Shown piece after piece: positions 19,368 to 60,556 of a DNA stretch of 60,556 nucleotides. The stretch's first letter is position 1. The number at the start of each line of letters is the position of its first letter. Below the pieces are notes generated by a model that saw nothing but the letters and a program-made list of their open reading frames with translations, was not told the DNA's origin and ran no database searches. Origin of the DNA: Amanita rubescens. Taxonomy: Eukaryota > Basidiomycota > Agaricomycetes > Agaricales > Amanitaceae. The DNA is taken from the NCBI GenBank assembly GCA_015039365.1, contig WION01000313.1, positions 1 to 60,556 on the forward strand, written 5' to 3'. The position numbers were made by a program, and so were the translations under genes.

Positions 19368-20656
19368 TTATCGTTCCGCCTCCAGTGCTGGATTGTTTTG
19401 GTCCACCGTATTCTCAGAGTATTCAGGCTTCTCGAGCCTATGGCCTGTGTTATCCCGATGCATCGGCCCCTTTTGCTTCTTTTCCTGCTCCTGTATCTTG
19501 CGAAGGTATTCGTTGCGCTGCTGACCAATTTGTCGTTCCGCCTCCTCCCGCGTGACTACGGTAGCCTGAGTAACTGAATCGAGGTCACCCGCCAATCGCT
19601 TCTTCTCCGCCTCCCATTTCTCTATATCTTTTTGGAGCCTGGTTTGCTCTGCCTCCAGCTCCTTCCTCAACTCCTCGTCTTTCTCCGCAATCGCCTCCTC
19701 CATCTCCTCTATCAAGTTCTTCATCTCATTTGCGTGCTTCTCAATGAGTTTGTTCATTTCCGCTCTGAGTTCAATGCCAGCTGTAGTCTCTTCAACTTTC
19801 TTTCCGTCGCGCATCTCGATCTGGATTTGGAGAGGGATAGGTTCCTTGTCCACAAGCTGATCCATGGTCCTGCGAGCGGATTCGATAGTGTTATCGTGAC
19901 GAAGAAATCGACCGCCAGCAGCAATGATTGGCTCGAAGAACATTCCCTTGGTCTTCATCAACTCTTCTTCCCGCCTTTCTGTCGCCTCTCTGTCTTTCTC
20001 CTGAACGTCGTCCCATCGGGTAGTCACAACGATGACGTTCTTCAGAGCGTCTACACCGCAGAGCTTTTGGAACATTTTCAAATTGCGATTCAAGGCGCCC
20101 CCCATTCTGGGATCAGTGATGCGATGCAGATAGATGATACCGTTGAGATTCTTGCCACGTTTGAATCTACGTGACGTCAGGGATTGCTGTAGGTCGAAGA
20201 AATAGATTACGCACTCAACGTCCAAGAAAGAGGCAATTTCTCGCAGGATATCGGTGTCCGTGACCCCTTCACGGGAATCATCAAATCCCGGGGTGTCTAC
20301 GAAGGTTACGCAGCGGCCACCCTCCGTGAAGTAGTTGAAGCGCCCGATCGTGGATGTCATAGACTCAACACTGTGTCCAACCGCAACGTTTTTGTCGCCC
20401 GTGATTAACCGAATGAACTATCATTTATCATAGAATCAACGTGTTGAATGCGTGTATGTGTCTCGAGCGCTCACCGATGACTTTCCAGTCCCAGTCGGAC
20501 CCATGATGCTGGAAGTGCGAGTTTGGTCAGTAGTACTCCGAACAAAGTCAGTGCTGAAGCTTACCCTATTGTCACATCTGGGGACCGCCTCGGTAGCTGG
20601 CCATGTTTACCATCAGCGCTTTTGGAACCAACTTGAGCATTGTGAGGGGGCGTCAT
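19368..20656 (-). CDS. AIG1-like P-loop GTPase with coiled coil, copy A (truncated by nonsense codon)
   Basis: Start ATG 20656 (MTPPHNAQ...PDVTIG). G1 GPTGTGKSS is in its own exon, G3 VTFVDTPGFDDS follows, and a G4-position motif VVTTRWDDV replaces the usual NKxD. Introns lie after TIG, after GKSS and after LDVE, as in the three sister genes. The C-terminal half is a charged coiled coil (EELRKELEAEQTRLQKDIEK). The frame ends with TAA at 19370-19368 where copy C has CAA, and the same frame continues open from 19367 to 19083 with more coiled-coil repeat (VDWDDRALEAERQVGQRRNE). This is a single C-to-T nonsense change that removes about 94 residues. Possibly still functional as a shorter protein. 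Role unknown; such genes are abundant in Agaricomycetes. Confidence 0.8.
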
Positions 20657-21717: not shown

Positions 21718-23063
21718 TCAGTAGCCGCGCCCGGCACGTAGCAGTTGCTGATACCTGCGGTCGGCCGCTTCTCTGTCTCGTCTCGTTTGATCAAGCTGTA
21801 CCTGGAGCCGTGCCTGCATGGTTCGATTGTTCTGATCCATCGTATTCTTAGTGCTTTCTAGGTTCTTGAGCCTGTAGCCAGTGTCGTTCTTCTCCCTCGA
21901 CACCCGGTCTATCGTCCCCTTCAGCTCCTTTCGTTCCTTCTCTGCTTTCTCTTCCGCCTCCCTTACCCTGCGGTTCAGTTCGTCACGCTGCTGAGCCATT
22001 TTTCGTTCCGTCTCCTTCCGTGCAGCTGCAGTGGCTTGTTTAACTGAATTGACGTCAGCCGCCAATTGCTTCTTCTCCGCCTCCCATTTATCTTTATCTC
22101 TTTGTAGCCTAGTTCGTTCCGCCTCCAGTTCGTTCCTCAACTTGTCGTTCTTCTCCGCCATCGCCTTCTCTATTTCCTTTCGCGTGTCTTTCATCTCGCT
22201 CGTCTGCTTCTCAACGAGTTTGTTCATTTCCGCCCTGAGTTCAGCGCCGGCCACAGTATCTTCGACTTTCTTTCCATCGTGCATCTCGACCTGGATTTGG
22301 AGGGCGATGGGGTCGTTGTCCAAAAGCTGGTTCATGATCCTGCAAGCAGATCCGAAAGTGTTATCGTGACGAAGGAACCGGCCGCCAGCAGCGATGAGTG
22401 GCTCAAAGAACATTCCCTTTGTCTTCATTAACTGGTCTTCCCGCCTTCCCATCGCCTCCTTGTCGTTCCCCGGAATCTCGTCCCACCGGGTGGTCACGAC
22501 AACGACGTTCTTCAGGGCGTCATCACCGCAGAGCTTTTTGAACAGCCTCAAGTTGCGATTCGAGATGCCCCCCATTCTTGGATCAGTGATGCGATGCAGG
22601 TAGATGATACCACTGAGTTTCTTGCCGCCTTTGAAGCTATGTGAGTTACATCAGGGACTGCTGTCTGTCGAGAAGTTAGATGACATACTCAGCATCCAGG
22701 AAAGAGGCGATTTTTTGCAGGATGTCAGTGTCCGTTACCCCTTCGCGGGAATCATCAAATCCCGGGGTGTCTACGAACGTTACGCAGCGGCCGTCTCTTT
22801 CAAAGTAGCGGAAGCGATCGACCTCGGATGTCACCGAGTCAATGCCATGTCCAATCCGAACGTTTTTGTCGCCCGTGATCAGCTGGATGAACTATCATTT
22901 GGGTGAGAATCAAGATTGGATGGATATATAAAACTCCAGGGCTCACCGACGACTTTCCGGTCCCAGTTGGACCCATGACTCTGAAAGATGCGAGTTTGGT
23001 CAGTAGTACTGCGAAAAAGGTCAGTCAAGCTTACCCAATTACCACATCACGTCGAGTGATCAT
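21718..23063 (-). CDS. AIG1-like P-loop GTPase with coiled coil, copy B
   Basis: Spliced from 23063: MITRRDVVIG, VMGPTGTGKSS (G1), FIQLITGDKNVRIGHGIDSV, VTFVDTPGFDDS (G3), FKGGKKLSGIIYLHRITDPR and VVVTTRWDEIPG (G4 position). Then FFEPLIAAGGRFLRHDNT and a single coiled-coil block (KMAQQRDELNRRVREAEEKA ... RLQVQLDQTRRDREAADRRY), ending LLRAGRGY. About 400 residues, intact. A GTP/ATP-binding switch with a dimerising coil is the likely architecture; cellular role unknown. Flanked by close paralogues in the same orientation, which points to unequal crossing-over. Confidence 0.88.
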
Positions 23064-24718: not shown

Positions 24719-26626
24719 CTACCAGAACCAGGAACGTGGCATGTTCCGGAGCAGTCGCCGATGCTTGCGCTCGACTTTTTCTTTCTCTCGTCTCGCTTCA
24801 TCGATCTGTGCCTGTATCTGTGCCTGAAATGCTCGATTGTCCCGGTCCAACGTATTCTTAGTGTTTTCCAGGTCCCTGAGCCTGCGGCTGGCGTCCTCCT
24901 TCTCCCTCGACACCCGGTCCGCCTCCTCCTTTTTCTCCCTCTCCGCCTTCTCTTCCGCCTCCCGTCTCCGACGGTATTCGTCATGATGCCGATCCATTTG
25001 TCGCTTCACCTCTATGGCTCGATTGCTCCAGTCCACCGTATTCTTGGAGGATCCTGACTGCTCGAATCTGTGGCTGGTGTTGTCATTTTGCCTCGACGCC
25101 CGGTCCATCGCCTCCTTTCGTTCCCTCGCTGCCTTCTCTTCCGCCTCCCGTACCCTGCGAAGTGATTCGTTAGTCTGTCGACGGATTTGTCGTTCCGCCT
25201 CCAGGGCTCGATTGTTCCCGCCCATCATATTCTTGGGGTATTCTAGCCCGTGGCTGGTGTGGTCTTTCCCCCTCGACGCCCGGTCCATCGTCTCTTTCCG
25301 CTCTTTCCGCTCCCTCTCCGTCTTCTCATCCGCCTCTCGTACCTTACGAAGGTATTCATTGCGTTGCCGTTCTTCTTCCAGGGCTTGATTGTTCCAGTCC
25401 ACCGTACCCCTGGAGTATTCTGGCTTCTCTAGCCTGCGGCCGGTGTCGTCCCCATCCCTCGACATCCGCCGGTCCGCCGGCCCCTTTTGCTTCTCCTCCG
25501 TCCCCCGTACCTTACGAAGGTATTCGTCACGTTGCCGACCCGTTTGTCGTTCCGCCTCCTCCTGTGCGACTACGGCAGCTTGTGTAACTGAATCGAGGTC
25601 ACCCTCCAATTGCTTCTTCTCCGCCTCCCATTTCTCCATATCTTTTCGCATCCTAGCTTGCTCCGCCTCCAGCTCCTTCCTCAACTCCTCGTCTTTCTCC
25701 GCAGTCGCCTCCTTCATCTCCTCTATCAAGTCCTTCATCTCATTCGTGTGCCTCTCAATGAGCCTGTTCATTTCCGCTCTGAGTTCAATGCCGGCCGCAG
25801 TCTCCTCGACCTTCTTTCCGTCCCTCATCTCGATCTGGATTTGGAGAGTCATCGGTTCGTTGTCCACAAGCTGATCCATGATCTTGCGAGCGGATTCGAT
25901 AGTGTTGTCGTGACGAAGAAATCGACCGCCAGCAGCAATGATTGGCTCGAAGAACATTCCCTTGGTCTTCATCAACTCTTCTTCCCGCCTTTCCGTCGCC
26001 TCTCTGTCTTTCTCCTGAACGTCATCCCATCGGGTAGTCACAACGGTGACATTCTTCAGGGCCTTTTCACCGCAGAGCTTTTGGAACATCTTCAAGTTGC
26101 GGTTCGAGGTGCCTCCCATTCTGGGATCAGTGATGCGGTGCAGATAGATGATACCGCTGAGTTTCTTGCCACGTTTGAATCTACGTGAGTTATATCAGGG
26201 ACGGCTGTAGGTCGAGAAATTATATTACGCACTCAACATCCAGGAAAGAGGCAATTCTTTGCAGGATGTCGGTGTCCGTTATCTCTTCGCGGGAATCATC
26301 AAATCCCGGGGTGTCGACTAACGTTACGCAGCGGCCTCCCTCTGTGAACCAGTTATAGCGCCCGATCTCGGATGTCATAGACTGAACACCATGTCCAATC
26401 TCAACGTTTTTGTTGCCCGTGATTAGCCGAATGAACTATCATTTAGCATAGAATCAACGCGTTGAATGCATGTATAAATCTCGAGCGCTCACCGACGATT
26501 TTCCAGCCCCGGTAGGACCCGTAATTCTGAAGGTGCGAGTTCGGTCAGTAGTACCGCGAAGTCAGTTCCCGGAGCTTACCCGATCGTCACATCTGGAGGT
26601 CGCTTTGAATCACGAGTGGCCATCAT
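24719..26626 (-). CDS. AIG1-like P-loop GTPase with expanded coiled coil, copy C
   Basis: Start at 26626 (MMATRDSKRPPDVTIG). G1 is GPTGAGKSS, G3 is VTLVDTPGFDDS, and the G4 position is VVTTRWDDV. The G domain is followed by about 330 residues of coiled coil. The coil is built from imperfect ~50-residue units, each with a variant of ERQ..NEYLRKVREAEEK...R.S...DDT..RLE..E..KNTVDxNNRALE. I count four to five units here against one in copies B and D and about three in A. It ends LLRNMPRSWFW. About 590 residues, no stop or frameshift. Intron positions match the sister genes. Confidence 0.88.
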
Positions 26627-28230: not shown

Positions 28231-30212
28231 CTACGCGTATCTGTAACAGAGAACGTCGTAGCTCTGTCAAGATCATGGAATTAGCGATATCGCCTTACGC
28301 TTTAGCGTCTTTGATGTCATACATACCTCAGCTGTTACAATTTCGGCATTACCGATGGCTACATTCCCCGAGGCTAGAAACACGGGTCCACTGGATCAAC
28401 TCGAGTAGATTGCTCCAAGTTGGCACTGCACATACCTTTGCAACCCTTCGATACCGAGGCAGGATGGGTACCGCCTGCATGGTAGAAACGTGCGACAAAA
28501 GAATCCGTGGAATCGACTTGTTTGTTCCCAAAAGGGACGGGGGCGTAAGAAATGGAATTAACATTGAAGGACCCACGAAACGAGACCCAGATTAAGCCCT
28601 TCACGTCCCCAATAAGTACTTCATGCTCATGGTAATCCAAGTGATGATATCCTTCCGCGATCCACCCATTGCTACAGCGTGTGTTCTTGAGCCGTGTTAT
28701 GAAACGGGAGAGGCTATCCTTAACCCCGCATTCGATAGGGTACTCGTTGAAGGAAGAACTACGGAATGTATCGTAGCCGCGGAAGGACGCCCAACTGCAG
28801 ACCTAATGCTCGTGCCAAGTCAGTGTGATCATGCAGGGCAAGGGACCGGCTTACTCGAGCACGCGTAGACAGGAGCAGTTGCTGTTGCTTGCGATCAGCC
28901 TCTTCTCTCTCGCGTTTCGCCTGATCAATTTGTGCCTGGATCTGTGCCTGCAGCTTTTTATTATTCTGGTCCGCCGTATCCTTGGTGCTTTCTAGGTCCT
29001 TGAGCCTGCGGTTAGCGTCCTCCTTCTCCTTCACCATCTTGTCCATCGCCGCCTTAAGCTCCTTTCGCTCCTTCCCCGCCTTCGCTTCCGACTCCCGTAC
29101 CTTGCGATCGAATTCCTCACGCTGCTCACCCATTTTTCGTTCCGCGTCCTTCTTTGCGACGTCGGCAGCTTGTTTAACCGAATCGAGGTCACCCGCCAGT
29201 CGCTTCTTCTCCGACTCCCATTTCTCCATCTCGCCTTTCAACCTAGCTCGCTCAGCCTCCAACTCTTTCCTCAACTGCTCGTCCTTCTCCGCAATCGCAT
29301 CCGACATTTCCTTTCGCAACTCATTCATCTCTTTTGTGTGCTTCTCAATGAGTTTGTTCATTTCCGCCATGAGTTCTGTGCCGGCCTCGGTCTCTTCGAC
29401 CTTCTTTCCGTTCTTCATCTCGACCTGGATTTGGAGAGCGATCGGGTCCTTGTCCAAAAACTTCTCCATGATCCTGCGAGCGGATCCGATAGTATTATCG
29501 TGACGGAGATACTGACCGCCAGCGGCGATGAGTGGCTCGAAGAACTTTCCCTTGGTCTTCATCAACTCTTCTTCTCGCTTCGCCATCGCCTCTCTATCTT
29601 TTGGCGGAACGTCGTCCCACCGGGTAGTCACGACGATGACATTCTTGAGGGCATCTTCACCGCAGAGCTTTTTGAACATCTTCAAGTTACGATTTGAGAT
29701 GCCCCCCATCCTGGGATCAGTGATCCGGTGCAGATAGACGACCCCGCTGAGTTTCCTGCCATCTTTGTATCTACGCGAATTACATCAGGGACTGCTGCGA
29801 GCAGAGAAACTAGATTACGCACTCAGCATCAAGGAAAGAGGCAATTTTTCGCAGGATGTCGGTATCTGTCACCCCTTCACGGGAATCATCAAATCCCGGG
29901 GTGTCAACGAACGTCACGCAGCGGCGGCTCTCCGTGAAACAGTTATAGCGCCCAATCTCGGATGTCATAGACTGAACACTATGTCCAATCTCAACGTCTT
30001 TGTTGCCCGTGATTAGCCGAATGAACTATCATGTAACATCGGCGGTAAGAATCACGAATGTATTGAATGCGCGAAAATTCAAATGCTCACCGACGACTTT
30101 CCAGTCCCAGTTGGACCCATGATTCTGAAGGATGCGAACTTGGTCAGTAGTACTGCGAAAAGGTGAGTCAAGCTTACCCGATCATCACATCTTGCTGAGC
30201 CTGAGGTGGCAT
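28231..30212 (-). CDS. AIG1-like GTPase - coiled coil - DM9 (DUF3421) fusion, copy D
   Basis: Start 30212 (MPPQAQQDVMIG). G1 GPTGTGKSS, G3 VTFVDTPGFDDS and G4-position VVTTRWDDV lie in the same exon layout as the sister genes, then one coiled-coil block ending QQLLLSTRAR. There a GTAAGC donor in phase 0 joins, across a ~55-nt intron, an exon open for over 120 codons: SNGWIAEGYHHLDYHEHEVL, IGDVKGLIWVSFRG, SFVARFYHAGGTHPASVSKG. Two more exons give ASGNVAIGNAEIVTAE and SYDVLCYRYA stop (28233-28231). This is the DM9 pattern (EVLIGD...W...ARFYH.GGTHP...YDVLCY). DM9 proteins are lectin-like, with immune recognition roles known in animals. If spliced as read, the protein has ~560 residues. The alternative is two separate genes, the second lacking its own start. 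Confidence 0.78.
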
Positions 30213-55091: not shown

Positions 55092-58000
55092 ATGGCAGAT
55101 ACAACTGGTGCACCTTCTTTGAGTAGGCTAATTTATGTGACTCAGCATTGCTAACCCTTGACTGACACATATCAGATGCAGACTCAGATGAGACACATGT
55201 TCAAATGCTCAGGGAACGCTACCTATGCCCACACTTTCGCATCCTTGTCATTGGGAGGGCTAATGCAGGCAAGACAACCATCCTTGAGAAGGTTTGTGGT
55301 GTAGCAAAGGGGACAAAGCCCATCATATATGGCAAGAATGGTAAGTGAGTCTGGATCTTGTGCTTCCTTCAATTGTTGAGTCTCTTGCAGGTAATCAGCT
55401 TGAACAGTCTGTGATTCATTTGATGCCATCACTTGAGGTGAGTTAGATAATGATGTATGAATGTACCCATTCACATGCCATAATAATAGAGGGGCCTGCA
55501 TGATATTGAGCATCAGATTACATACCCTGGAAGTAACTTTATCTTCCATGACTCTCAGGGTTTTGAATCTGGTTCAACTGAGGAATTGGAGATTGCTTGG
55601 AAGTTCATTGAAAAGAAGTCTGCAGAAACTGAGCTGAAAAACCAGCTGCATGCAATTTGGTATTTTGCTCTATCCCTTTACAGTACTGGCTAACCTGGCT
55701 TCCTCTAGGTACTGTATACCCATGGACAGCCCTCGACCCATTCTACCTGCAGAACTTGAATTCTTCAATAAAGGGACAGGCAGAGGTAAGTCCTAATGAA
55801 TTCATATCTCATCTTGTAACTTGTTGGTTTTGGTTACCCTTAACTATTGTTACCTCCTTTCCATTGGCCAACTTGTCACAAAATCTACTAGTACTGACTA
55901 GTAAATATTTCCTTTACAGTTCCTTTGGTGGTTATATTCACTAAATTTGATGGTCAAATAGCCAGTGAATCTGTCAACTTGACTCCTGATGCAAAGGATG
56001 AAGATAAGTGGGAGAGAGCCAGGGAAATTGCTGAAATCACTTTTCAGAAAGTTTATCTTCCTCAAGTTTTGGATGCCATATATCCTCCCAAGGCATATGT
56101 GCGATTGGAAGGTGAGAATGATGAGGATTTCTTCCTGAAAAATGGTAGTAATGTTGTTTCATAGACATGGATTTACCAGAGAAGAATTGTGCTGAATTAA
56201 CTCAGCAAACTGCTGATGCAATAGATGATGCCAGCATACATCAGCTGTTTGTTTCAACACAAATGAATAATCTTGACCTTTGTGTTAAATCTGCACTTCA
56301 GTGAGGGTCACATTCAAAATGTCACTTACTAACATTGACATTATCCAGACATGTTCTGAAGTATAAAAATTGGACATGGGATGATGTCATTATCATAGTT
56401 TTTTCAAAATTTCCACATTTTTGGGTATGCATTTTTGTCAAACTGCACATCAGCATAGGAAATTTTAAATGGCAATAGGTGGACAGGGAGGCAGGTGACC
56501 TTCATATGGAATGATAAATATTTGCAAATGTTCATCAGGTGGTAAGTAACACTCCAATGCCTTCACATGAAAACAAGATTAGTCATGCTTCAGATGGCCA
56601 ATGAACAACTGAGTGAAACACAGGTTAGTCACTGTCACCATATTCTTGGTGGCATGATCTGATGATATTGATATCAGTGGGTAAGTGACATTGAACTACT
56701 ACATACATAGCATAGATCTGATATATTGTCTCATGACACTAGTTTGTGAGTAATGCTTCCTTTTGTGATCAGCAGTCTTGTCCCATAATCTACAGGAAGT
56801 GAGTGACATGACTCCATTTTGATCTTTGGTAAATGATCCCATGGTGCATCATATGTCCAATAGCAAGTGAGTTGATCTATCATTGTAAGCATACTTGTGA
56901 ATCCAGTCTCTCATGGACAGGGAGTGGGTATTACAACATTGTTTCACACCACATCTGACCTGGTTAAAGAAAGTAAGCAACATTGATGTTCATACAGCTT
57001 ATCAGACATAACTCAATAAACAACAGAAAGTTGGTAACATATTATTATCTGAAAGAGAGTCTCAACAAATTTCATTGGATTAATAACAGGAAGTAAGTAA
57101 CATCTCCTTTCTGTCTGCTTATAAACATTGCATCATGTCCCAAAACAACAGACAGTAAATATCTCTCCTTTTCAAAGCCTCTTCAAACTTCAAAGCTATT
57201 GCAAAACAAACAGGATGTATGTGATCCTTTTGTGACATGTGAATCCATCATATAAAATACTATGGCAAAAGAGAGTCAGTGGCATTGTTTTCTTTTTTCA
57301 CAACTCCTCATGATACTAATTCCATTCTAAAAGGAAGTGAGTGAGTGATGCTGGCTGCTACAGGTCACATTATTTTGTTCTACAGATTGTGAGTGATATT
57401 GAAAGTTTTGTGAAAAGCAGTGAAATCACAGCTTTTCTTATAAACATAGAAGGTTAGCAGCATGTCATACTGGTTTAATGGTTCAAAAGATGACCTTATC
57501 AAAATTTTGCCTGTGTCCAACAGTATGTGAGTAACATTGCACATTTTGTGAAAGGCAGTCTCATCACATCTTTTCCTATGACCAACAGGGAGTGAGTGAC
57601 ATTGCACATTTTGTGAAAGGCAGTCTCATCACATCTTTTCCTATGACCAACAGTTTGTGAGTGACATTGCACATTTTGTGAAAGGCAGTCTCATCACATC
57701 TTTTCCTATGACCAACAGGATGTAAGTGACATTGCACATTTTGTGAAAGGCAGTCTCATCACATCTTTTCCTATGACCAACAGCAAGTGAGTAACATTGC
57801 ACATTTTGTGAAAGGCAGTCTCATCACATCTTTTCCTATGACCAACAGTTTGTGAGTGACATTGCACATTTTGTGAAAGGCAGTCTCATCACATCTTTTC
57901 CTATGACCAACAGGAAGTGAGTGACATTGCACATTTTGTGAAAGGCAGTCTCATCACATCTTTTCCTATGACCAACAGGATGTAAGTGACATTGCACATT

Positions 58001-60556
58001 TTGTGAAAGGCAGTCTCATCACATCTTTTCCTATGACCAACAGGATGTGAGTGACATTGCACATTTTGTGAAAGGCAGTCTCATCACATCTTTTCCTATG
58101 ACCAACAGCGAGTGAGTGACCACTGACATTGCACATTTTGTGAAAGGCAGTCTCATCATATCTTTTCCTATGACCAACAGTACGTGAGTGACATTGCACA
58201 TTTTGTGAAAGGCAGTCTCATCACATCTTTTCCTATGACCAACAGTTTGTGAGTGACATTGCACATTTTGTGAAAGGCAGTCTCATCACATCTTTTCCTA
58301 TGACCAACAGCGAGTGAGTGACATTGCACATTTTGTGAAAGGCAGTCTCATCACATCTTTTCCTATGACCAACAGGATGTAAGTGACATTGCACATTTTG
58401 TGAAAGGCAGTCTCATCACATCTTTTCCTATGACCAACAGTTTGTGAGTGAGATTGCACATTTTGTGAAAGGCAGTCTCATCACATCTTTTCCTATGACC
58501 AACAGTTGGTGAGTGAGATTGCACATTTTGTGAAAGGCAGTCCCATCACATCTTTTCCTATGACCAACAGCGAGTGAGTGACATTGCACATTTTGTGAAA
58601 GGCAGTCTCATCACATCTTTTCCTATGACCAACAGTCCGTGAGTGACATTGCACATTTTGTGAAAGGCAGTCTCATCACATCTTTTCCTATGACCAACAG
58701 GATGTGAGTGACATTGCACATTTTGTGAAAGGCAGTCTCATCACATCTTTTCCTATGACCAACAGGATGTGAGTGACATTGCACATTTTGTGAAAGGCAG
58801 TCTCATCACATCTTTTCCTATGACCAACAGTTTGTGAGTGACATTGCACATTTTGTGAAAGGCAGTCCCATCACATCTTTTCCTATGACCAACAGTTTGT
58901 GAGTGACATTGCACATTTTGTGAAAGGCAGTCCCATCACATCTTTTCCTATGACCAACAGCAAGTGAGTGACATTGCACATTTTGTGAAAGGCAGTCTCA
59001 TCACATCTTTTCCTATGACCAACAGTTTGTGAGTGAGATTGCACATTTTGTGAAAGGCAGTCTCATCACATCTTTTCCTATGACCAACAGCGAGTGAGTG
59101 ACATTGCACATTTTGTGAAAGGCAGTCTCATCACATCTTTTCCTGTGACCAACAGCGAGTGAGTGACATTGCACATTTTGTGAAAGGCAGTCTCATCATA
59201 TCTTTTCCTGTGACCAACAGGGAGTGAGTGACATTGCACATTTTGTGAAAGGCAGTCTCATCATATCTTTTCCTATGACCAACAGTTTGTGAGTGACATT
59301 GCACATTTTGTGAAAGGCAGTCTCATCACATCTTTTCCTATGACCAACAGTTTGTGAGTGACATTGCACATTTTGTGAAAGGCAGTCTCATCACATCTTT
59401 TCCTATGACCAACAGATGGTGAGTGACATTGCACATTTTGTGAAAGGCAGTCTCATCACATTTTTTCCTATGACCAACAGCGAGTGAGTGACATTGCACA
59501 TTTTGTGAAAGGCAGTCTCATCACATCTTCTCCTGTGACCAACAGGAAGTGAGTGACATTGCACATTTTGTGAAAGGCAGTCTCATCACATCTTTTCCTA
59601 TGACCAACAGGATGTGAGTGACATTGCACATTTTGTGAAAGGCAGTCTCATCACATCTTTTCCTATGACCAACAGGATGTGAGTGACATTGCACATTTTG
59701 TGAAAGGCAGTCTCATCACATCTTTTCCTATGACCAACAGCGAGTGAGTGACATTGCACATTTTGTGAAAGGCAGTCTCATCACATCTTTTCCTATGACC
59801 AACAGCGAGTGAGTGACATTGCACATTTTGTGAAAGGCAGTCTCATCACATCTTTTCCTATGACCAACAGGATGTGAGTGACATTGCACATTTTGTGAAA
59901 GGCAGTCCCATCACATCTTTTCCTATGACCAACAGCGAGTGAGTGACATTGCACATTTTGTGAAAGGCAGTCTCATCACATCTTTTCCTATGACCAACAG
60001 TATGTGAGTGACATTGCACATTTTGTGAAAGGCAGTCTCATCACATCTTTTCCTATGACCAACAGCGAGTGAGTGACATTGCACATTTTGTGAAAGGCAG
60101 TCTCATCACATCTTCCCCTGTGACCAACAACAGGAAGTGAGTGACATTGCACATTTTGTGAAAGGCAGTCTCATCACATCTTTTCCTATGACCAACAGGA
60201 AGTGAGTGACATTGCACATTTTTGTGAAAGGCAGTCTCATCACATCTTTTCCTATGACCAACAGGATGTGAGTGACATTGCACATTTTGTGAAAGGCAGT
60301 CTCATCACATCTTTTCCTATGACCAACAGCGAGTGAGTGACATTGCACATTTGTGAAAGGCAGTCTCATCATATCTTTTCCTGTGACCAACAGGGAGTGA
60401 GTGACATTGCACATTTTGTGAAGGCAGTCCTCATCATATCTTTTCCTATGACCAACAGCGAGTGAGTGACATTGCACATTTTGTGAAAGGCAGTCTCATC
60501 ACATCTTTTCCTATGACCAACAGTTTGTGAGTGACATTGCACATTTTGTGAAATCA
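55092..60556 (+). CDS. P-loop GTPase with a tail encoded by single-codon exons (3' end beyond window)
   Basis: Exons 55092-55122, 55176-55340, 55391-55437, 55490-55659, 55709-55785, 55920-56111, 56165-56300 and 56349-56424 splice in phase. They encode MADTTGAPSL, FRILVIGRANAGKTTILEKV (G1 GRANAGKT), NFIFHDSQGFESGS (G3 DSQG), WYCIPMDSPRPILPAELEFF, VPLVVIFTKFDGQ (G4 TKFD), PEKNCAELTQQTADAIDDAS with IHQLFVSTQMNNLDLCVKSA, and a hydrophobic DDVIIIVFSKFPHFW. This is a GTPase type abundant in Agaricomycetes, different from the copies at 19-30 kb. After 56424 only tiny exons remain: a 30-nt exon (56594-56623, MANEQLSETQ) and then at least 61 exons of 3 nt. The 30-nt exon is open only in phase 0, so every 3-nt exon is one whole codon. 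None of the 61 is a stop. The tail would be rich in Arg, Asp, Glu and Phe. The junction between 56424 and 56539 is uncertain; a frame reading NGNRWTGRQ keeps phase. Confidence 0.8.
56678..57526 (+). other. Single-codon exons separated by diverged introns
   Basis: Triplets between an AG acceptor and a GT donor start at 56678 (TGG), 56743 (TTT), 56796 (GAA), 56864 (CAA), 56921 (GGA), 56970 (AAA), 57027 (AAA), 57090 (GAA), 57152 (ACA), 57214 (GAT), 57272 (AGA), 57334 (GAA), 57386 (ATT), 57450 (AAG) and 57524 (TAT). The introns between them are 46-71 nt, mostly unlike each other in sequence, with donors GTAAGT, GTGAGT, GTTGGT, GTATGT, GTCAGT and others. Confidence 0.75.
57527..60556 (+). repeat. 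65-nt minisatellite: near-identical 62-nt introns separated by variable triplets
   Basis: 46 complete copies of an intron-like unit (GTGAGTGACATTGCACATTT ... CCTATGACCAACAG) from 57527, each followed by a triplet; the next unit is cut by the window end. Triplet starts run 57589, 57654, 57719 and so on at +65 with few indels (58109-58181, 60066-60134, 60199-60265, 60330-60394). The 46 triplets: CGA 12, TTT 10, GAT 10, GAA 4, GGA 3, CAA 2, and one each of TAT, TAC, TTG, TCC and ATG. Unit differences are few (TCTCATCA/TCCCATCA, CCTATG/CCTGTG, ATCACA/ATCATA). Confidence 0.95.

Follow-up and report, generated by a model that had tools for sequence, protein, structure and literature searches.

Predicted runs of single-codon exons in a GTPase gene family of Amanita rubescens

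Introduction

The micro-exon genes (MEGs) of schistosomes carry runs of tiny symmetric exons between ordinary exons, which together encode a variable protein part. In MEGs, most coding sequence falls into symmetric exons roughly 6-36 nt long, and the product is secreted with a signal peptide. In recursive splicing, sequence is removed stepwise at zero-length AG/GT sites, at which a 5′ splice site is rebuilt. Here we analyse a window of 60556 bases (contig C239 of a 75.7-Mb assembly of Amanita rubescens; Agaricales, Amanitaceae) in which the exons of a GTPase are followed by a long run of putative exons that each consist of a single codon.

The locus resembles MEGs in placing a run of tiny symmetric exons between ordinary ones, giving a variable protein part. 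It differs from them in that nearly all exons of the run are one codon long, with up to 81 in succession in the gene family, in that the introns of young loci are near-identical, and in that the host GTPase has ordinary exons. Rather than lying mostly in exons of 6-36 nt, its coding sequence is divided between run exons of 3 nt and a 309-codon part made mostly of ordinary exons. The rebuilt 5′ splice site of recursive splicing would be a shared feature, but here each step would leave one codon behind.

Other ultra-short exons and repeated introns are described in the excerpts of the sources cited here. APC11 contains a 1-nt exon, for which intron definition with recursive splicing or successive intron removal was proposed, and the smallest exons before it were a constitutive exon of 6 nt and an alternative exon of 3 nt (PMC4674806). 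Isolated 3-bp exons are given for hth, troponin T and NCAM (PMC7392893), and plant microexons measure 1-15 nt (PMC8831610). As far as these excerpts go, such exons are likewise too short for exon definition, but they occur one or two per gene, whereas dozens are consecutive here. Fungal introner-like elements are near-identical introns with many copies per genome and gains in different genes (PMC4457414); as excerpted, they share near-identical high-copy introns with the present locus, in which the introns instead form arrays with one codon between them and belong to one gene family. A literature search with little subscription or bioRxiv coverage showed no paper on runs of one-codon exons among the entries listed.

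The window contains a chain of predicted 3-nt exons

From position 56678 to 60524 the plus strand is a succession of 61 AG/NNN/GT units. None of the triplets is a stop, and the introns of the run are 46-71 nt long, mostly 62 nt. We scored such exon chains at different exon lengths. The chain of 3-nt exons scored 142, and any other exon length between 1 and 12 nt gave at most 3.0. Dinucleotide shuffles (200) reached a score of at most 5.6 with at most 3 exons, against 142 with 61 exons, and positions 1-54900 of the window reached at most 4.3 on either strand. The part that precedes the satellite (56425-57505) still yielded 14 exons, compared with no more than 2 in 1000 shuffles, and when exon lengths of 1-30 were tried on this part no length was comparable to 3 nt. 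A comparison of the window with Rfam gave no match.

As a check on the exon counts of individual loci, we also used a length-free measure, in which the space between the end motif of one intron and the start motif of the following one may take any value from 0 to 14 nt. The motifs are modelled on the 62-nt intron, so that the measure sees chiefly young introns. Within the window the gap was 3 nt in 43/43 cases. Across 12 loci it was 3 nt in 331/341, the others being 6 nt (n=3), 4 nt (n=4) or 2 nt (n=3). Exon counts from the chain scorer carry an uncertainty of a few units, since the scorer sometimes picks a cryptic AAAG/GCA/GT and one related locus, L020, may have GC donors. The cryptic single-codon exon GCA lies inside the 62-nt intron consensus of the window and the other loci, where it could be used by mistake. 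The apparent 7-nt exons NNNGCAA before GTGAGT at L020:313, 611, 1318 and 3670 are probably triplets with a GCAAGT donor.

A first-pass annotation, made from the sequence alone, had described at least 61 single-codon exons and read their triplets as complete phase-0 codons free of stops. The chain, shuffle and gap results confirm this observation in the window and agree with the reading of the triplets; the interpretation built on it is, as a whole, partly supported. We consider it very probable that the block is functional coding sequence belonging to a large A. rubescens GTPase family, in which the codons of the linker that connects the G domain to a C-terminal helical domain each form their own 3-nt exon, and from which GT-AG introns of about 62 nt are predicted to be removed. 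Splicing of one-codon exons within the family is well supported by the comparisons of genomic and protein sequences described below, from which we infer the same splicing for the copy in the window.

The run follows eight GTPase exons

The eight GTPase-coding exons upstream of the run were placed by their splice sites and open frame, and paralogues have the same structure. They encode the motifs G1 (GRANAGKTT), G3 (HDSQGF) and G4 (FTKFD), the last of which is invariant among 31 aligned homologues. Without the 12-nt exon the gene model is open over 309 aa. The run had been placed directly after the GTPase exons and a 30-nt exon; its existence stands, with the correction that a 12-nt exon and a GTG exon lie in between (Table 1). 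In homologues the region of the 12-nt exon reads FPHLW-VDRA-V (P0001) and FPHFW-VGRD-E (P0013).

The first 15 triplets of the run, here called the head, are the part common to most paralogues, and their introns (46-71 nt) differ from one another. The joined counterpart of the head in P0001 reads KWFEKGKKESDREIEY. The hypervariable part that follows lies in a tandem array with 94% matches, and the run ends in the window solely through the end of the contig at 60556.

Table 1. Features of the GTPase gene and the single-codon exon run in the window
Feature	Positions	Strand	Basis
GTPase exon 1, ATG start	55092..55122	+	gene model, open frame, paralogue structure
GTPase exon 2, G1/P-loop GRANAGKTT	55176..55340	+	gene model; conserved in homologue alignment
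GTPase exon 3	55391..55437	+	gene model
GTPase exon 4, G3 HDSQGFESG	55490..55659	+	gene model
GTPase exon 5	55709..55785	+	gene model
GTPase exon 6, G4 FTKFD	55920..56111	+	gene model and homologue alignment
GTPase exon 7	56165..56300	+	gene model
GTPase exon 8, C-terminal end ..KFPHFW	56349..56424	+	gene model
12-nt exon GTGGACAGGGAG, VDRE, GC donor	56479..56490	+	position in the sequence; homologue reading
Single-codon exon GTG (V)	56539..56541	+	gene model; GAG or AAG in some paralogues
30-nt exon MANEQLSETQ	56594..56623	+	gene model; counterpart in P0001 and P0013
Head, 15 single-codon exons TGG..TAT, WFEQGKKETDREIKY	56678..57526	+	exon chain and head comparison
Hypervariable part, 46 single-codon exons GGA..TTT	57589..60526	+	exon chain; reaches contig end
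Tandem array with period 65 and 46.7 copies, each unit one 62-nt intron and one 3-nt exon	57506..60553	+	

The architecture recurs throughout the family

The 62-nt intron consensus has at least 410 matches in the genome, and the contigs among the intron matches listed hold this GTPase family (few candidates were scored). We fetched 21 related loci, ten through intron matches and eleven more through the conserved last exon of the family, and found the single-codon exon architecture in 21/21, with 5 to 81 exons each. The counts are 26-63 in L009-L016, seven at the contig start in L017 and L018, 22-81 in L019-L028 (81 in L025 and 79 in L026) and five in L029. Gene models lifted to L011, L014 and L022 were left out, the frame being not open or cut.

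For the last exon (AIIIIAKLSFW..) 150 matches are reported, and no internal stop occurs among the matches listed. Relative to the query from L009, its identity falls to 44% in L027, 50% in L028 and 56% in L024, and despite this divergence 39, 23 and 43 single-codon exons, respectively, were called in these loci. Their introns score locally against the 62-nt family at 10.9 in L027 (shuffled, 7.2), 16.7 in L024 (7.0) and 17.2 in L028 (6.5), and those of L027 are hardly recognisable as members. The persistence of 23-43 single-codon exons in distant loci with much diverged introns upholds the claim that recent satellite growth does not account for the 3-nt spacing.

Several loci have features of their own. 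The contigs of L017 and L018 begin inside an array (C650:1 and C88:1) and are identical over their first 1400 bases; the assembly breaks in arrays, with haplotypes possibly kept apart. Retroelement-like frames of 656 and 584 aa adjoin the last five single-codon exons of L029, which has a retroelement-like pol frame upstream, and L028 has a retroelement-like frame of 656 aa. Exons of 2 or 4 nt lie at L015:5545, 5612, 6196, 6652 and 6716, L012:4968 and L011:6721; one adjacent pair of 4 and 2 nt in L015 restores the frame, which the overall sum does not.

Codons and introns vary differently

With a parse that allows exons of 2, 3 and 6 nt, none of the 908 single-codon exons at 20 loci is a stop, compared with 54 stops expected in 873 triplets from position-wise base frequencies. 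The apparent stops in L014 and L015 under a 3-nt-only parse arose where the parse slipped, either at an exon of 2 or 6 nt or through a shift of a few bases.

In the head, compared over ten loci (45 pairs; L010, L011 and L014 left out for register), codons differ by 7.1% and the introns between them by 11.9%. The window and L021 agree at 45/45 codon bases of the head and differ at 16% of intron bases. The recent group L009, L012, L013 and L015 has the reverse pattern, with codons differing by 4-13% and introns by 0.6-1.5%. Within the arrays, the ratio of codon to intron diversity is 34 in the window and 56, 291, 58, 78 and 84 in five other young arrays, compared with 5.6 in L022. Between L009 and L012, 9/159 codon bases and 11/2818 intron bases differ (p = 3e-7).

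The array-intron consensus differs by 0-1 of 62 bases across 14 loci, and in the sequence upstream, compared for 11 loci, differences amount to 1-14%. Because the intron consensus is constant while the codons vary, the introns seem to have been homogenised or copied and the codons not. Most of the visible diversity is at the DNA level, distinguishing one locus or haplotype from another.

Database proteins carry joined codons of related loci

Several database proteins encoded on short jgi contigs carry the array region in one piece. P0125 (120 aa, from a 993-nt contig) begins with a six-residue lead, followed by SHHIFSYDQQ, the translated end of the 62-nt intron (0/200 shuffles), and then by QLQSHLEAG, which corresponds to the codons that close the L022 array. 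The corresponding reading of L022 runs from the intron end through CAA, CTT, CAA, TCT, CAT, CTT, a 6-nt exon GAAGCA and GGA, takes the next exon in a 12-nt form and finishes with CTT followed by three exons of larger size. P0125 matches this reading, which spans eight single-codon exons and the 6-nt exon, at 114/114 aligned residues; a message of L022 or of an identical allele therefore joins single-codon exons, with one array intron partly kept. The 12-nt form that P0125 has (L022:4786-4797) comes from an AG located nine bases before the usual acceptor of a 3-nt exon. In a search of 153 database proteins for retained introns, with 200 shuffles, four proteins exceeded all shuffles: P0125, P0143, P0148 and P0106. 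We take P0143 and P0148 as unspliced readings and the score of P0106, considered as a retained-intron product, as chance.

P0121 (2135-nt contig) comes from a relative, its last exon being 92% identical to contigs C207 and C278. With 6-nt exons allowed, it matches L025, whose chain was called by the general scorer with no use of P0121, at 57/60 residues and L026 at 51/59. Against 11 other loci its scores were 19-36, near or below the shuffle maxima (L010, 36 against 34). P0121 lacks one residue relative to L025 at one place and shows no further gaps, and it also fits two 6-nt exons and TGT as the final codon before DELFSMFG. The matched L025 codons span about 3.7 kb, which exceeds the length of the P0121 contig. 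The first-pass annotation had contrasted its reading with a block removed as one intron or retained unspliced; P0125, which joins L022 codons, and P0121, which joins about 60 L025 codons, speak against this for the relatives.

P0001 (386 aa, 1446 nt) contains the head and 43 more residues and then IVRFHF.., the translated intron after the array, and P0132, P0130 and P0149 are likewise contiguous through the array region. P0132, P0130, P0149, P0001, P0013 and P0017 have no clear match to any fetched array. Pieces of P0001 gave no match in the genome of the window at 1e-40, a threshold that single exons of a multi-exon query may not reach. Neither of the public protein models P0002 and P0003 extends into the array.

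Splice sites and a possible order of splicing

The splice sites are ordinary GT-AG sites with a few GC donors. The third codon base is chiefly A or T (643/716), so most donors lack the usual CAG on their exonic side. Simultaneous binding of both splice sites of a 3-nt exon is unlikely, so splicing would be ordered, as the first-pass annotation had also argued: introns would leave one after another, each splice setting NNN before the next GTGAGT, so that each triplet would supply the exonic side of the 5′ splice site used next. Among ten loci compared, a zero-length AG/GT site lies just after the array or between its last codons in L016, L017, L019, L020, L021, L023 and L024 and is absent in L009, L013 and L015. 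In L019, L020, L021, L023 and L024 it is followed by a single-codon exon, called as TGT, CGT or ATT. Judged by site sequence, these candidate ratchet sites at 7/10 loci fit stepwise splicing. P0125, in which an upstream intron is kept and downstream codons are spliced, may argue against a strict 5′-to-3′ order.

Predicted fold and possible role of the linker

The predicted fold consists of a G domain and a helical domain, and its best fold match is the family of immunity-related GTPases (IRGs; Irga6, Irgb6, Irgb10 and GM4951). MMR_HSR1 matches only below its cut-off, and the G domain may be related to septin, EngB or Arf. The likeness to IRGs lies in the predicted G and helical domains and is unaccompanied by a phmmer sequence match; to our knowledge, IRGs have no arrays of one-codon exons. 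By analogy with the predicted IRG fold, the variable linker could be a recognition surface.

On the minus strand of the window, four similar frames (19368-20417, 21718-22650, 24719-26194 and 28759-29784) have VVTTRWDD(V)/EI-type motifs and coiled-coil-like tails. They form a second GTPase-like cluster, presumably AIG1/GIMAP-like, and match no Pfam family at 0.001.

Discussion

Several observations weigh against a working array of single-codon exons or against its proposed mode of change. L025 and L026, probable haplotypes, show no codon excess (14/241 codon against 191/4110 intron differences, p = 0.43). Block duplication of codon words does not exceed chance, except weakly in L013 and L015, and equal neighbouring codons are in slight excess only (80 against 59.7), so simple unit duplication is poorly supported as the mode of growth. 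L011, L012 and L015 hold 2- or 4-nt exons whose full inclusion breaks the frame; given such exons in 3/12 loci, some array copies may be broken. When proteins were searched with the array predicted for the window, no candidate product emerged, and when eight proteins were set against all arrays, a fetched locus was clearly matched by P0121 and P0125 alone. P0125, P0121 and P0001 were compared at the protein level. The first six residues of P0125 have no match in L022, and the upstream AG of its 12-nt form was picked after P0125 was known. The array part has low model confidence, and phmmer with one sequence against PDB chains, made without a profile search, found no IRG up to E = 1.

How the arrays arose is a separate matter. 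Introns related to introner-like elements could have invaded an ordinary exon between its codons, in which case the codons would be old and the 62-nt introns new. The near-identical introns, shared by 14 loci whose upstream sequence differs by as much as 14%, agree with such an origin, as do the members in the older loci L021 and L025, which lie on average 8-10 bases off the shared consensus, and the mostly unduplicated codon words between nearly identical introns. Random insertion would not, however, give one-codon spacing in 331 of 341 gaps, and ten other contigs among the intron matches listed all carry the last exon of the family. We regard this origin as possible but doubtful.

It is unlikely that the window copy is a decaying pseudogene whose array merely replicates as DNA while other members of the family function. 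Such decay would agree with the lack of a product found for the window array, with the frame-breaking exons of three related loci and with the contig end that cuts the array and leaves its 3′ part unseen, but the open GTPase model, the 61 stop-free triplets and the uniform 3-nt gaps of the window speak against it.

Alternative splicing, in which skipping and inclusion of 3-nt exons would let one gene produce many one-residue variants, had been suggested from the symmetry of the exons, whose skipping keeps the frame. P0121, one residue short of L025, and P0125, with its retained intron end and its 12-nt form of a 3-nt exon, could be read in this way. Apart from these departures, the inclusion seen is near-complete; P0121 agrees with L025 without more gaps, no isoform series was seen, and the proteins are single predictions. 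We consider this explanation improbable.

That the array is a non-coding minisatellite within one long intron, its splice-like motifs recurring through copying of a 65-bp unit, is highly improbable: the tandem organisation and the public models that stop before the array would suit it, but the pre-satellite part by itself holds far more exons than its shuffles, the architecture persists in distant members whose introns have diverged, all 908 triplets lack stops, and the codons of L022 and L025 appear in order in P0125 and P0121, respectively. At the level of the family, a satellite-only reading is ruled out by these two proteins and the old loci.

The reading of the block as a working coding stretch of single-codon exons leads to a more tentative proposal, to which we give somewhat less than even weight. 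As a codon-cassette gene, the locus would use its near-identical introns as homology through which recombination adds, removes or swaps residues in frame, in a large family of recognition GTPases with a fast-changing linker and one-by-one splicing. Already under the main reading, the array would diversify in the DNA codon by codon, with units gained, lost and replaced while the introns stay alike.

The arrays indicate that a spliceosome is able to splice together dozens of successive exons, each of the minimum length that keeps the frame, and offer a direct test of exon- and intron-definition models. Similar genes may be hidden elsewhere, given that public models, P0002 and P0003 among them, break off ahead of the array. 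The arrays also suggest a new way to vary a protein, in which single residues are held as separate genomic cassettes.

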